From IMG/VR virus record IMGVR_UViG_3300008464_000005, positions 1-29,052 of that record: DNA of 29,052 nucleotides; one strand, given 5' to 3'. Made by a program: the position numbers and the translations under genes. The DNA is from a virus. Position 1 is the stretch's first letter. Every line of letters begins with the position of its first letter. The notes under the pieces were generated by a model that saw nothing but the letters and a program-made list of their open reading frames with translations, had not been told where the DNA came from and made no database searches. Shown here piece after piece: positions 20,074 to 26,808 of this stretch.

Positions 20074-20105
20074 GCTTATCCTGTTATGTTCTGCTTATTG
20101 CGCTG

Positions 20106-20339
20106 TTATATTGCGTCCCAAAGTTCATTAGGCAGCCATATATTATTATCTTTCTCCTCAAAAGCATCGCCAGCGGTAAACACTAAATTCACGGTTCTTC
20201 CTTCAATGCTTTTTAAGAATATTTTAGTCTTTACATACTCATCCCAACCCCAAGCCTTCCATACACCATTAAGCTCACCTTTCAGGTCGCTGCATAATTG
20301 GTACCTCATTATCAAGTTTGTTTTCATTCTTGCTTTCAT
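20106..20339 (-). CDS. First gene of the leftward operon, hypothetical
   Basis: This is a 77-residue protein. The ATG at 20339 has AAAGGAAAG just upstream; later in-frame ATGs exist, so the start is slightly uncertain. The sequence (CSDLKGELNGVWKAWGWDEY ... VNLVFTAGDAFEEK) belongs to no family I recognise. It is the nearest gene to the leftward promoter and so would be made earliest. Confidence 0.55.
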   Translation of the reverse strand: MKARMKTNLIMRYQLCSDLKGELNGVWKAWGWDEYVKTKIFLKSIEGRTVNLVFTAGDAFEEKDNNIWLPNELWDAI

Positions 20340-20410
20340 AATTCTTTCCTTTTTCTAGCTGCCACATAAAAAAGTCGTTTAAATAGCTTAATCAATCTTT
20401 ACTTACAATC

Positions 20411-22251: not shown

Positions 22252-22431
22252 ATGATACCTAACGAAATAAAACAAAACTTTCTAGCTAAAGCGCATATGG
22301 AAATAGACTTTCCTGCTTACTTGGACGATCTAGCTTTAGCCACACTGGATACACACATGGCTAGCGGCTGCGGTTGGATAGACGCTAAAAACCAGACATT
22401 AAATGAATTAAAGGACGGGGTATTATTATGA
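22252..22431 (+). CDS. Small hypothetical protein upstream of ERF
   Basis: This is a 59-residue protein starting MIPNEIKQNFLAKAHMEIDF. It is acidic and helical. Its stop overlaps the ERF start (ATGA), so it is translationally coupled to it. No domain seen. Confidence 0.55.
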   Translation: MIPNEIKQNFLAKAHMEIDFPAYLDDLALATLDTHMASGCGWIDAKNQTLNELKDGVLL

Positions 22432-23156
22432 GTATTAATGAAAAACTATCCGAGATTCAAAGAGGCTTGGCGGTACCAAAAGGCCAGCGCAATGATTTTG
22501 GTAAATACGCATACAGAAGCGCCGAAGATGTACTTCACGCAGTAAAGCCGCTATTAGGTGGGCTGACATTAATCACTAACACTGAAATGGTCGCCGTAGG
22601 AGATAGGGTTTACGTAAAATGCACCGCCATTATTCGTGACAACAGCGAGTCCGCTTCAGCCTCTGGTTACGCTAGGGAGCCTTTATCGCGCAAGGGTATG
22701 GATGAGTCGCAGATAACAGGAGCGGCCACTAGCTACGCTAAGAAGTACGCGCTAGGCAATCTATTTGCCATTGATAACGAAAAAGACGCGGATACTATGG
22801 CCCCGCCGCCGCCTTATACAGATGAACAGCAATTAGAGTTCACGGGGATTATAGAGAGAGGAACTGGCTTAGGCTTGGTCAACTTTATTGAGCGTCATGG
22901 TAGAGAGGTTTATACGGCCTTATATAATTCAGCGCCTAAAGATAAGATGAAGTTCAAGGCAAAGTGTGACGAACTGTATGCGGAAGGTTCAGCAACGTTT
23001 GACGAGATAGCCCACGAATGTAAGACGGCTTTAGATATGGGTGATGCTGAAGGCTTTAAGGAGCAAGTATCGGATTTACCGCCGCCGCTTAAAAAGCTAC
23101 TGACAAAGCAATTAACACCTGGGCATATGGCGCAAATTAAGGCGTTTAAATCATGA
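22428..23156 (+). CDS. ERF-family single-strand annealing recombinase
   Basis: This is a 242-residue protein. The ERF domain covers residues 1-125: KLSEIQRGLAVPKGQRNDFG, the KYAYRSAEDVLHAVKPLL core, and the signature GMDESQITGAATSYAKKYAL followed by LFAIDNEKDAD (about 90-122). ERF proteins anneal complementary single strands in phage recombination and genome circularisation, as in P22. The C-terminal half is helical with no named domain. It works with the SSB and NinG-like proteins encoded downstream, which the cassette array now separates from it. Confidence 0.85.
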   Translation: MSINEKLSEIQRGLAVPKGQRNDFGKYAYRSAEDVLHAVKPLLGGLTLITNTEMVAVGDRVYVKCTAIIRDNSESASASGYAREPLSRKGMDESQITGAATSYAKKYALGNLFAIDNEKDADTMAPPPPYTDEQQLEFTGIIERGTGLGLVNFIERHGREVYTALYNSAPKDKMKFKAKCDELYAEGSATFDEIAHECKTALDMGDAEGFKEQVSDLPPPLKKLLTKQLTPGHMAQIKAFKS

Positions 23157-23571: not shown

Positions 23572-23786
23572 AAAGACTAGGTAAAAAAGTGCAGTTTCAC
23601 GGTATTGATATTGTGATAACTAAGCCTTACGTGGCGGTTGATGGTCTTGGGATGATTCATGAATACTCAAGAAAACCTGCTCCCCATCGGCATTATTGGA
23701 GAACCAATAGCTTTGTAAATTATCTCGGTAAGGTCGATCTTCAAGGGATGGACTTTAAAGAAACACTACTGAGGTTTGACGTATGA
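23568..23786 (+). CDS. Hypothetical early protein
   Basis: This is a 72-residue protein starting MKRLGKKVQFHGIDIVITKP. Its composition is beta-rich with an RHYWRTNSFVNYL segment. No family is recognised. The stop overlaps the next start. Confidence 0.55.
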   Translation: MKRLGKKVQFHGIDIVITKPYVAVDGLGMIHEYSRKPAPHRHYWRTNSFVNYLGKVDLQGMDFKETLLRFDV

Positions 23787-24082
23787 GCGGAACACCTTCT
23801 GCAAAAGTGATCGCATTCAATGAAAACAAACACGGCAAAGGTTGCTTAGAACCAAAAATATGCGAAGGATGCGGCGGGTTTATGCGGGTTGAAAACTTTA
23901 AAACCCCGTACTACTTTATCCGAGGTGTCACCTGCGGCTCTGCCTGTGCCCAGTTCGTTAAAAGCAAACCGAGAACAGTAAAAGGTAAGTACGCTAAAGT
24001 CGTTAGAGCGATAGGCGAAGATTGGGCCAAAAGGTCAGCAACAGAAAAGCTAATACAAGATGCCATCTGCGCAAAACTTTAA
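23783..24082 (+). CDS. Zinc-finger-like protein at the left edge of the cassette array
   Basis: This is a 99-residue protein. A CEGCGGFM motif (about 27-34) is followed by CGSAC (about 51-55), so four Cys could hold one zinc. The C-terminal 45 residues are basic and helical. It is coupled to the upstream gene. Its last bases (ACTTTAA) run into the first attC-like site, so the array was inserted right at its 3' end. Confidence 0.6.
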   Translation: MSGTPSAKVIAFNENKHGKGCLEPKICEGCGGFMRVENFKTPYYFIRGVTCGSACAQFVKSKPRTVKGKYAKVVRAIGEDWAKRSATEKLIQDAICAKL

Positions 24083-24109
24083 CCGCTCAATTTGAGCGAC
24101 TTGTTATAA
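24077..24109 (+). repeat. Left boundary attC-like site (short form)
   Basis: CTTTAAC, then the stem CGCTCAA/TTGAGCG, then ACTT and GTTATAA. Order and spacing are those of a minimal attC. Its 3' part GCGACTTGTTATA is identical to 13 bases of the fifth cassette's attC. It has no cassette of its own upstream, so it is the entry point of the array or the remnant of a lost cassette. Confidence 0.6.
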
Positions 24110-24124
24110 ATACGGAGATGAAAA

Positions 24125-24331
24125 ATGAATTTTACTGTAAGAAATATTGCTGGCGAATATCAAGAGATGACGGTGGACGCTATTGAGACGGGAACGATGG
24201 GCAAGAAAGAGGCTGTTAGACTTGCGCAGGCGATGATTAGCGCGGCAGAAGAATTACTTCATGGCGCTGACTTACCCGTCAACAGCGATGCTTGCGGTAC
24301 TATTGTCGAGGATTTGATTGAGTATTTATAA
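24125..24331 (+). CDS. Cassette 1 gene: acidic helical protein
   Basis: This is a 68-residue acidic protein starting MNFTVRNIAGEYQEMTVDAI and ending TIVEDLIEYL. Residues 25-50 form an Ala-rich helix (EAVRLAQAMISAAEELLHGA). The ATG follows a GGAGATGAAAA ribosome site at the cassette's 5' end. Its stop TAA lies inside the following attC, as is common for cassettes. No family recognised. Confidence 0.6.
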   Translation: MNFTVRNIAGEYQEMTVDAIETGTMGKKEAVRLAQAMISAAEELLHGADLPVNSDACGTIVEDLIEYL

Positions 24332-24388
24332 CGCCCTAGTTAAAGAGGCGCGTGCTTTAACGCGCTCTGTTTGAAAGAAATGTTAGGT
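24326..24388 (+). repeat. attC of cassette 1
   Basis: R'' TTATAAC (24326-24332) is complementary to the cassette's own first bases; ten bases (GTTATAAATA at 24103-24112) match. R' GTTAGGT (24382-24388) fits GTTRRRY. Between are AGAGGCGCGT/ACGCGCTCT with one unpaired G and a 6-base top. 46 bases of this site recur almost exactly in cassette 4. Confidence 0.85.
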
Positions 24389-24413
24389 GGTTTTAAAGTA
24401 AACAGGAGTGAAT

Positions 24414-24665
24414 ATGAAATATGCAATTTATGAACGTGAAACCGTATTGGAGAGCATAGCCTCTGACGCAGTTACATTCTTAGGATTAACTTTTTGTATT
24501 TGGTTTAGCGACAAAATGGGCGGTGCTTTTTGGACGATTATGAGCGCAGCAATGCTATTTATTTGGCTTAGCGTGAAGATACCCATGGAAAAAGACAGGG
24601 TGAAGAAACTTAAAAGCAAAGAAGAGGCTATTGAGTGGGCAAAGTCACTACCTGACGACACCTAA
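24414..24665 (+). CDS. Cassette 2 gene: two-span membrane protein
   Basis: This is an 83-residue protein from the ATG at 24414 with AACAGGAGT ribosome site; an in-frame GTG at 24408 is inside that site. Two hydrophobic segments (about 18-32 and 38-55), then a charged helix (KDRVKKLKSKEEAIEWAKSL). Small membrane proteins are frequent in integron cassettes. Function unknown. Confidence 0.65.
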   Translation: MKYAIYERETVLESIASDAVTFLGLTFCIWFSDKMGGAFWTIMSAAMLFIWLSVKIPMEKDRVKKLKSKEEAIEWAKSLPDDT

Positions 24666-24723
24666 CGCCCAACTTTAAGCAGCCGCAAGCTTTGTGCGGT
24701 CTGACTTTAAATATTTGTTATAC
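24660..24723 (+). repeat. attC of cassette 2
   Basis: R'' ACCTAAC fits RYYYAAC exactly and, with the C before it, is the reverse complement of the cassette's start GTTAGGTG. R' is GTTATAC (24717-24723). The inner stem is AAGCAGCCGCA paired with TGCGGTCTGACTT, leaving one T and one A unpaired, the typical attC extrahelical bases. Confidence 0.88.
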
Positions 24724-24745
24724 GATTAATTTAGGAGAAGTAAAA

Positions 24746-24988
24746 ATGAACATAATAGATCCCAAACGATTGAAAAATAGAGATGTTGTAACGGTTAAAG
24801 AATGGACTAGAAGCAACGACACGAGTTACGTTGGCGAGCTATTAAGAGTTAAGCATAACCGTTTACCTTTTATTGTTTTAGAAAGACGCGCAGGGGGGCT
24901 AAGAGAAGATATTAAGCTGGACAGCAGGAAAGTGATATTTGAAAAGCCGATATATAATTACGCTAAAGAAATGCTACGGGATCATTAG
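24746..24988 (+). CDS. Cassette 3 gene: basic hypothetical protein
   Basis: This is an 80-residue protein from the ATG at 24746 with ribosome site TTAGGAGAAG; an in-frame ATG at 24692 lies inside the attC and is unlikely. The sequence is basic and beta-rich (KRLKNRDVVTVKEWTRSNDT ... RLPFIVLERRAGG). No family recognised. Confidence 0.6.
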   Translation: MNIIDPKRLKNRDVVTVKEWTRSNDTSYVGELLRVKHNRLPFIVLERRAGGLREDIKLDSRKVIFEKPIYNYAKEMLRDH

Positions 24989-24997
24989 ACCCATTCC

Positions 24998-25060
24998 GTA
25001 TAACGCCCTAGTTAAAAGGCGGCTGCTTTCTAGCCGTCATTTTTGAACACTTTGTTATAC
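24998..25060 (+). repeat. attC of cassette 3
   Basis: R'' GTATAAC (24998-25004) matches the complement of the cassette's start GTTATAC. The inner stem pairs GCGGCT with AGCCGTC imperfectly, under a CTTT-containing top, with an outer TTAAAA/TTTTTGAA. R' is GTTATAC (25054-25060). Confidence 0.82.
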
Positions 25061-25085
25061 GAGAATTAAAAATAGAGGAAGCATT

Positions 25086-25292
25086 ATGTTAAAAGTTGGA
25101 AAAAAATACACCTATACGAACCTTAGACCTTTCCCCGCAGATATGGCCTTATCTGAAATAACAATAACCGGCATCCGCACCGAAGGCGAAGGCCTCAGCG
25201 TATCACATGATTTTGTAAAAACTAACGGGAACACTGGCAGTGGGACAATGACTGCTAGGCAGGCTGAAAAATACTTAGAACCTGCCGTATAA
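25086..25292 (+). CDS. Cassette 4 gene: small beta-rich protein
   Basis: This is a 68-residue protein starting MLKVGKKYTYTNLRPFPADM. It has alternating strands (SEITITGIRTEG, LSVSHDFVKTNG, GSGTMTARQAEKYL). The ribosome site is TAGAGGAAG. The stop TAA is inside the attC. No family recognised. Confidence 0.6.
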   Translation: MLKVGKKYTYTNLRPFPADMALSEITITGIRTEGEGLSVSHDFVKTNGNTGSGTMTARQAEKYLEPAV

Positions 25293-25349
25293 CGGAATAA
25301 TTAAAGAGGCGCGTGTTTTAACGCGCTCTGTTTGAAAGAAATGTTATAC
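25287..25349 (+). repeat. attC of cassette 4
   Basis: R'' GTATAAC and R' GTTATAC (25343-25349). Positions 25301-25346 are identical to 24340-24385 of the first attC except one base at the stem top, so these two sites are recent copies. The 5' part differs (AACGGAATAA instead of AACGCCCTAG). Confidence 0.83.
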
Positions 25350-25369
25350 GAATTTAATGGGAGATTGAT

Positions 25370-25555
25370 ATGACAGAAAACTGGTTAAGTGTTGATAAAG
25401 GTTTACCAAAAGACGGCGATTACACCGTAAAAGTTACCAAAAATGGTAAAGAAGCTGTGGTAATTCGCAGGCTAATTAAAGGCAAATGGTTGGGAGGCTG
25501 CCGCCCTTTCACGGACGGAGAGAATGAGACGCACTATAAAAATGACGGCGTATAA
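25370..25555 (+). CDS. Cassette 5 gene: DUF551-like protein
   Basis: This is a 61-residue protein. NWLSVDKGLPKDGDYTVKV then KGKWLGGCRPF resembles the short DUF551 pattern (W.SV...LP..G..V.V.....), also found in phages and small mobile genes. The ribosome site is TGGGAG. The stop is in the attC. Role unknown. Confidence 0.6.
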   Translation: MTENWLSVDKGLPKDGDYTVKVTKNGKEAVVIRRLIKGKWLGGCRPFTDGENETHYKNDGV

Positions 25556-25615
25556 CGCCATAGCTCACTTGCTGCGCGGCTCTTTCGCGCAGTCAGGTGC
25601 TGCGACTTGTTATAT
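25550..25615 (+). repeat. attC of cassette 5
   Basis: R'' GTATAAC matches the complement of the cassette start. The inner stem is CACTTGCTGCGCG paired with CGCGCAGTCAGGTG, with one unpaired T. R' is GTTATAT (25609-25615). It shares GCGACTTGTTATA with the left boundary site. Confidence 0.87.
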
Positions 25616-25646
25616 TGCGATAATTTAATTTTACAGAGGAATTAAC

Positions 25647-25796
25647 ATGGAAATAGAATGTCCAGAATGCGAGAAAACACAAGAGTTAGACTGGGACGAT
25701 TTGCCAGAGAGAGCTTGTGATGATGAAGACTACGAATGCAGGTATTGCGAGTACCAATTCAAGATTGGCTGGTACGCTACTGCCGAATTGAGATAG
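25647..25796 (+). CDS. Cassette 6 gene: zinc-ribbon protein
   Basis: This is a 49-residue protein with two CxxC knuckles (CPEC near 5-8 and CRYC near 31-34), highly acidic between (DDLPERACDDEDYEC). It is a typical minimal zinc ribbon. The ribosome site is AGAGGA. The stop precedes the attC. Similar small ribbons occur in phage and in cassette genes; the target is unknown. Confidence 0.7.
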   Translation: MEIECPECEKTQELDWDDLPERACDDEDYECRYCEYQFKIGWYATAELR

Positions 25797-25798
25797 CA

Positions 25799-25860
25799 AT
25801 ATAACGCCCGTTAATAAGCCGCTGCGCTTTTTGCAGTCGGCTTGATAAACCTTGTTATAC
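25799..25860 (+). repeat. attC of cassette 6
   Basis: R'' ATATAAC extends to ten bases complementary to this cassette's own start (GTTATATTGC at 25609-25618). The stem AAGCCGCTGC paired with GCAGTCGGCTT has exactly one unpaired T, and the outer GTTAATAA/TTGATAAAC also pairs. R' is GTTATAC (25854-25860). The cleanest attC of the array. Confidence 0.9.
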
Positions 25861-25882
25861 GCGATTTTAAGGAGAAGTGAAT

Positions 25883-26056
25883 ATGAGCTTGTACAAGACT
25901 AGGCAGAAGAAATACTGTAAAGATTGCAGATACCACTGGCTTATCGGAGCTAATGACGGAAGCCTTGATAATTGGTGTTGCAAAATAGGAAGATCAGCTA
26001 GGAGAGCGATACCGCGTTGCATAGCAAAGAATTACAAAACTTTGCGTGACGTATAA
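25883..26056 (+). CDS. Cassette 7 gene: small Cys-rich protein
   Basis: This is a 57-residue basic protein starting MSLYKTRQKKYCKDCRYHWL. CKDC (12-15), CC and a later C could bind metal. The ribosome site AAGGAGAAG is strong. The stop TAA is inside the attC. No family recognised. Confidence 0.65.
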   Translation: MSLYKTRQKKYCKDCRYHWLIGANDGSLDNWCCKIGRSARRAIPRCIAKNYKTLRDV

Positions 26057-26134
26057 CGCCTTAGTTAAATTGGCACGTGACGTAGACTGATAAGCCGCAA
26101 ATATATGCGGCTCAATTTAAACGCCATGTTATAT
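26051..26134 (+). repeat. attC of cassette 7 (longest)
   Basis: R'' GTATAAC is complementary to the cassette start. Outer stem TTAAATTG/CAATTTAA is followed by an internal arm AGCCGCA/TGCGGCT. The total is 84 bases, about 20 longer than the others because of an extra unpaired arm on the 5' side. R' is GTTATAT (26128-26134). Confidence 0.82.
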
Positions 26135-26157
26135 GGCGACCAGAAAAAGGAAAGAAA

Positions 26158-26340
26158 ATGACAACAGATAAAGAGAGAGGTTGCTGGTATTGGGGAACTG
26201 ACCCGCGTGAAGGAGACATATGGTTTCCGTTTTACTACAGAGAAGATGGCGTGATATTAACTGACGGAGTAGAGCAAGACGCTGAACCAACATTTAACGC
26301 ACTTATTACTGTGAAAGCAGAAATGCCAAAGGCAATATAA
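26158..26340 (+). CDS. Cassette 8 gene: small aromatic-rich protein
   Basis: This is a 60-residue protein starting MTTDKERGCWYWGTDPREGD. It is rich in W, Y and F (WYWGTDP, IWFPFYYRED) and acidic. The ribosome site is AAAAAGG. The stop overlaps the right boundary site. No family recognised. Confidence 0.6.
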   Translation: MTTDKERGCWYWGTDPREGDIWFPFYYREDGVILTDGVEQDAEPTFNALITVKAEMPKAI

Positions 26341-26374
26341 CTAGTCATTAAGAGGAATTAAATTCCTGTTAATA
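26335..26374 (+). repeat. Right boundary attC-like site (degenerate)
   Basis: R'' ATATAAC (26335-26341), a compact palindrome AGGAATT-A-AATTCCT (26353-26367), then GTTAATA (26368-26374). Complementarity to the cassette start GTTATAT is seven bases only, and the R' box is off-consensus. Probably a decayed attC; it may no longer recombine. Confidence 0.5.
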
Positions 26375-26430
26375 CACTAATAAAGCCCAAAGCGGGAATC
26401 AACAAACACAACACAACAAGAGGAAAGAAA

Positions 26431-26808
26431 ATGAACACTTTTAATTTTACTGGAAATTTAGGTCGTGACGTAGAGGTTAAGTACGCGGCAAGTGGTACGG
26501 CAATAGCAAGTTTTAGCGTACCCGTTAAATCAGGATATGGCGATAATGAAAAAACATCATGGGTGCGTTGTGCGATTATTGGCAAACGCGCTGAAGGTGG
26601 GCTGATTCAGTACCTTAAAAAAGGCCAGTTAGTTGGTATAAGCGGCGAATTATCAATCAATGTTTACACGAATAAAGAAGGCGTTGAAAAGACGAGCGTC
26701 GAAGTGTTTGTAAAAGAGATTGACCTACTAGGCAGTAAGCAACAAGCTAGCCAAGCACCGCAGCAAGCAGATAATGCGGGTGGCTTTGATGATGATCTTG
26801 ATTTTTAA
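26431..26808 (+). CDS. ssb: Single-stranded DNA-binding protein
   Basis: This is a 125-residue protein. OB-fold: MNTFNFTGNLGRDVEVKYAA, FSVPVKSGYG, TSWVRCAIIGKRAEGGLIQYL, then a KGQLVGISGELSINVY strand. The C-terminal tail is Gln-rich and ends DDDLDF, matching the acidic partner-binding tip of bacterial SSB (DDDIPF). It would coat replication and recombination intermediates together with ERF. It also follows directly after attC DNA, which folds only when single-stranded, so its dose could influence attC folding (inference). Confidence 0.88.
   Translation: MNTFNFTGNLGRDVEVKYAASGTAIASFSVPVKSGYGDNEKTSWVRCAIIGKRAEGGLIQYLKKGQLVGISGELSINVYTNKEGVEKTSVEVFVKEIDLLGSKQQASQAPQQADNAGGFDDDLDF

Follow-up and report, generated by a model that had tools for sequence, protein, structure and literature searches.

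The early region of this phage raises the question of what the short attC-like sequence at the left end of its cassette array represents: a distinct entry site for cassettes, or part of an ordinary attC site. The window, by which we mean the whole stretch of 29,052 nucleotides that was analysed, is a 29-kb virus record, partial and linear, encoding a P22-type coat protein; by coat, Pseudoalteromonas phage H6/1 (67%) is the named phage closest to it. Its early operon carries, in this order, erf, a few small genes, a 99-aa gene, seven small cassettes, a small gene, ssb and ninG, all features given below being on the plus strand unless stated. The Erf-like single-strand annealing protein (22428..23156; PF04404, E 8e-30) belongs to the same early operon, and ssb lies at 26431..26808 (PHROG 44, E 3e-37). 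The site itself occupies 24077-24109 and reads CTTTAACCGCTCAATTTGAGCGACTTGTTATAA, 33 bases, position and letters agreeing with an earlier note on this DNA. That note took it for a distinct short, possibly attI-like site with its own ends and stem, while our results point instead to a 5'-truncated attC.

We characterized the array using separate 5'-arm and 3'-arm profiles, built from 20 full attC sites of the window and of the contigs L031, L115, L136 (contig G030) and L140; attC calls therefore refer to arm profiles made in this analysis and not to the HattCI or IntegronFinder model. Results showed an array of seven cassettes at 24104..26128, each consisting of a small ORF and an attC, the first spanning 24104-24382 and the following ones ending at 24717, 25054, 25343, 25609, 25854 and 26128. 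Both arms scored in the seven full attC sites (24327-24389, 24660-24724, 24999-25061, 25288-25350, 25551-25616, 25800-25861 and 26052-26135), with 10.9-24.0 bits for the 5' arm and 14.9-23.5 bits for the 3' arm. We also considered an eighth attC at the right border (26334-26377) and rejected it, as both arms failed (5' arm -1.7 bits, 3' arm -8.9 bits). Because the sequence after the gene at 26158-26340 fails both profiles, the array holds seven attC sites and this gene is probably native; the putative native right flank (26129..26430) would thus comprise a leader, this gene and the spacer to ssb. A second short hairpin, AGGAATTAAATTCCT, is present at 26334-26377 near GTTAATA, just left of ssb, and is attC-like in look.

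Tandem attC cassettes with no integrase found, in a genome that is a phage's by its P22-type coat, Erf, NinG and ssb, make this locus a CALIN. No PF00589 tyrosine recombinase was detected in five virus contigs searched, the window record included, all of them partial or possibly fragments, which fits an integrase acting in trans.

Where do the cassettes begin? IntI crossover in the R' box follows the rule G|TTRRRY. The R' box GTTATAA at 24103-24109 is in register with the other attC sites of the array (W1-W7), and the rule places the crossover at 24103|24104, making G24103 the presumed last base of the left phage DNA and T24104 the presumed first cassette base. The half-site sequence at this left junction reads ...CAAAACTTTAACCGCTCAATTTGAGCGACTTG. 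As the earlier note had proposed, this is the left border of the cassette array. The cassette-side G|TT lies at 24103|24104, and seven complete cassettes follow it in register. Its remarks on the neighbouring gene were also borne out: the site overlaps a stop codon, the TAA at 24080-24082 that closes the ORF 23783-24082, and cassette entry at 24103|24104 would spare this upstream gene.

We then asked whether the bases left of the crossover occur elsewhere. Within the array, the 13-mer GCGACTTGTTATA at 24096-24108 recurs in the attC of cassette 5, accounting for the 13 common bases noticed earlier. A scan of IMG/VR for CGCTCAATTTGAGCGNNNTGTTA returned one contig, L031, in which the bases shared with the half site make up the right half of a complete attC of 85 bp (L031:339-423), starting TATAACGCCATAGCTAAATTGG; window positions 24069-24107 and the 3' half of this attC are identical at 38 of 39 positions, with one mismatch. 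Scanning bacterial and archaeal representative genomes for the arm added one real case, L115. In this phage-like contig of 4.6 kb, which comes from the bin of a Cellvibrionales genome, a dUTPase gene is followed by GATAACGATTTAGTTAAATTGGCCGAAACTTTAACCGCTCAATTTGAGCGATTTGTTATGC, and the end of a 62-bp attC matches the window arm at 33 of 34 bases. Among four pattern matches to the exact arm in bacterial representatives, about the number expected by chance (rough estimate 3-4), only L115 has an attC, and 390 genomes of the order yielded only L115 plus one match with 3 mismatches.

As the matching bases form the right half of full attC sites in L031 and L115, the 33 bases are an attC 3' arm. They are contained in a longer element, 24069..24109, which corresponds to the 3' arm (L' + R' half) of an attC that lacks the 5' arm. 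This changes the reading of the site's left end: CTTTAAC, previously regarded as matching the end of an attC, is not an R'' box, and in the full L031 and L115 sites it lies, together with the 7-base stem, internal to the 3' arm. The statement that full attC arms are missing is correct for the left side, where no 5' arm is found upstream, and wrong for the right side, where 24069-24107 is a complete 3' arm.

The profiles gave the same picture. The half site scored 27.5 bits on the 3'-arm profile and 25.0 bits when L031 and L115 were excluded from training, against a best score of 15.7 bits outside the array; with near-identical sites excluded from training it ranked first among 58,058 positions on both strands of the window. 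This match is far beyond chance. The 100 nt upstream of the site reached at best -3.7 bits on the 5'-arm profile, a value exceeded by 96% of the other 100-nt blocks of the window, and an AAC-N5-AGCTAA match found there, tried as a decayed 5' arm, was unsupported by the profile. The half site thus has an R' box with G|TT and a 3' arm like those of its neighbours and lacks the 5' arm (R'' + L''); since this arm is unrecognisable, we regard the site as a remnant and not as a complete attC. Arm-to-arm duplex energies add nothing to this conclusion, because real attC sites were not separated from random partners.

These matches also bear on the idea that a host IntI used a plain GTT in phage DNA, the attC likeness on the left being due to chance. 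A border at G|TT would suit such an event, and IntI1 can use attG sites, through which cassettes can enter genomes (PMC12901181). It predicts, however, no attC likeness left of G|TT, yet about 34 bases there match the attC 3' arms of other phages; this largely refutes the attG reading, which we consider highly improbable. Judged from its letters, the half site is the surviving right half of an ordinary attC, attached where a fixed phage gene ends; it marks the real left junction of the array.

The stem announced by the earlier note is present inside 24077-24109 as the palindrome CGCTCAATTTGAGCG (24085..24099), two 7-base arms, CGCTCAA and TTGAGCG, around a single T. Taken alone, the hairpin is weak evidence: by chance (Markov model, same composition) the arrangement AAC, 7-bp perfect stem and GTT is expected 0.27 times per strand, and the window contains it at two places. 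The bottom strand of the 33 bases folds at -6.1 kcal/mol, an energy equalled by none of 200 shuffles (z -4.3), and in this fold TAAC pairs with GTTA beside the stem. Single-strand folding did not recover the textbook attC structure for every full site, and for this reason we do not take folding as proof. The fold could nonetheless suggest that the palindromic 3' arm is an autonomous site, folding on itself into a hairpin used by IntI and serving as a compact entry point at the gene end; the left border of G030, likewise very short at 31 bp, would agree with this. However, in L031 and L115 the same palindrome sits within a full attC, which makes a separate function unnecessary, the fold has a one-sided 4-nt bulge without L'' box or extrahelical bases, and the short site of G030 differs in sequence and has no such palindrome. 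We therefore find a self-sufficient hairpin unlikely and retain the reading as a truncated attC.

We also considered the gene to which the arm is attached. This 99-aa phage gene (99 codons, 23783..24082) has its last codons and its stop inside the attC arm. Cassette genes are followed by their attC, and their stop codons are often located in R''. An arm directly after the 99-aa gene, as in a cassette, could accordingly mean that this gene is an old first cassette with a decayed attC and not a fixed phage gene. However, its start overlaps the upstream neighbour by ATGA (23783-23786) with no attC or cassette leader before it, and its stop codon is inside the 3' arm and not in an R'' box. The ATGA overlap indicates an operon gene that is not itself a cassette, and we judge the old-cassette origin quite unlikely. 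A fixed phage gene carrying the remnant is the reading we keep.

No relative of the 99-aa gene was found in Pfam, PHROG or by tblastn, nor in IMG/VR, phage records, 28 phage contigs and 369 class genomes, and these searches gave neither an array-less relative of this exact lineage nor one with the same gene and an intact attC. A DNA search of named phages with the region gave no near match, and in distant mode only ssb matches; the coat-protein relatives have no early region in common with the window. As no relative with the 99-aa gene was found, we infer the deletion of the 5' arm and do not see it directly.

The same layout was recognised in other phages. In four other phage contigs an early-operon gene likewise carries an attC at its stop, and in three of them cassettes follow; the genes at these left borders resemble ordinary operon genes, and the border sites comprise three full attC and one 31-bp shortened site, so that full, shortened and half forms are observed across phages. 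G030 follows the plan of the window, with operon genes, a dUTPase, the 31-bp site GATAACGCCAAGTTAAACCGCCTTGTTATAC, cassettes with full attC and then ssb. L140 carries the same dUTPase (94% protein identity); a long array headed by a different full attC comes after it. In L115 a single full attC follows the dUTPase, with no further attC ahead of the next two genes. The closest relative by ssb, L002 (83% over 103 aa), lacks an attC in the 321 bases that precede this gene, at which point its contig starts; its array sits downstream of ssb, with several attC-like sites of which two passed the profile scan and the others were read by eye. The first of these attC-like sites is located where a PrtN-like gene has its stop codon, and its sequence is nearly identical to that of the third attC of the window.

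A few further observations were made in these genomes. One phage whose ssb is related (L002:1218-2393 and the end of contig G025, L138) has several attC cassettes after this gene and additional ones at the opposite end of the contig. An almost identical attC-like site of 53 bp occurs in two phages (L136:5000-5052 and L140:448-500), and the gene that follows this shared site in G030 is mostly deleted in L140. In the window, the leader behind the last attC (26129-26156) and that of the minus-strand gene 20106-20339 (leader at 20342-20369) share 86% identity; the match at 20342-20369 runs on into a degenerate attC 3' arm, GCTATTTAAACGACTTTTTTATG, scoring 5.3 bits, and L031 has a full attC at the corresponding place, upstream of a cro-like gene. 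A conserved motif, TAACAGC-N(2-5)-AATAAGC[AG]GAA, was present in three phages (window 20089-20109 on the minus strand, L002:256-276, L031:721 and 1415), starting at stop codons just before cro-like, ssb and other early genes; it begins like an attC R'' box and no 3' arm comes after it. Moreover, the protein of cassette 2 (24408-24665) is homologous to the product of an operon gene located upstream of dUTPase (L136:3416-3667; 32% over 82 aa, E 6e-9). As this homologue is an ordinary operon gene elsewhere, phage genes exist both inside and outside cassettes.

Taken together, we consider it very probable that a phage early-operon gene once ended in an attC, that the 5' arm of this attC was later deleted, and that the site is the 3' half left over. 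A host IntI, acting in trans, would have used the G|TT of the attC for cassette insertion; the gene and the attC bases left of the crossover would have stayed in place, and cassettes would have been gained and lost to the right of G. With an attC at its stop, a gene would thereby become the fixed end of the array, as attI is in an integron. A later deletion, not made by IntI, would have joined the gene to the inner 3' arm, with loss of the 5' arm and a new stop codon. Some other illegitimate event could instead have joined the 3' arm to the gene, and just one of the four other left borders is shortened, which counts against this reading. At present the half site probably makes a poor or dead attC hairpin; its R' box could still allow low-efficiency use as a double-stranded acceptor, and the site may anchor the cassettes, the first of which would be harder to excise than the others. 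If it still serves insertion or excision, the locus without cassettes would consist of CTTTAACCGCTCAATTTGAGCGACTTG joined to TTATATGGCGACCAG.

These features can be compared with known systems. Phage genomes with runs of small cassettes and attC but no integrase are already known as CALINs, and some of their attC sites recombined with IntI1 (Qi et al. 2023, PMC9892861). The window phage resembles them in its small attC cassettes and in the absence of a detected integrase; it differs in its left border, a half attC on an early-operon gene, a kind of border site not discussed in the parts of that paper considered here. Truncated attC sites are also known. Partial loss of an attC with gene fusion is documented for blaGES-1/aacA4, where the truncated GES-1 attC is inactive, while a truncated aadA1 site was reported active (PMC4670013). 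There, as here, part of the first gene's attC is lost and the gene is fused to the following sequence, but those cases are in bacterial class 1 integrons, whereas the window has a phage operon gene with the 3' part kept. Delta-attI cassettes and attG sites (PMC12901181) are likewise non-standard sites usable by IntI1 in arrays or genomes; the delta-attI cores AAACAAAGTTRRRY and AATAAAATGTTRRRY do not match our site, and the left flank in the window is an attC arm. Like attI of integrons, the site marks a fixed left end for cassette addition; unlike attI, it is derived from attC, no intI was found (no PF00589 in the partial window record), and by eye it does not resemble the Shewanella-type attI printed in PMC9892861. 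A recurring early-operon gene with a stop-codon attC as fixed left border in several phages seems undescribed in PMC4670013, PMC12901181 and the portions of PMC9892861 covered here.

A broader model is conceivable, although we hold it only tentatively and think it rather doubtful: a docking attC fixed at the stop of an early-operon gene (dUTPase, PrtN-like, 99-aa gene), near ssb or other replication and recombination genes, would replace attI, host integrases would swap cassettes during infection when ssDNA is plentiful, and ordinary phage genes could become cassettes. Integron biology still has to explain how genes gain an attC and hence how cassettes arise. The phage borders described here offer natural material on whether phages supply or shuffle cassettes and on whether a half attC still receives them, and the homologue of cassette 2 found as an ordinary operon gene adds to that material.
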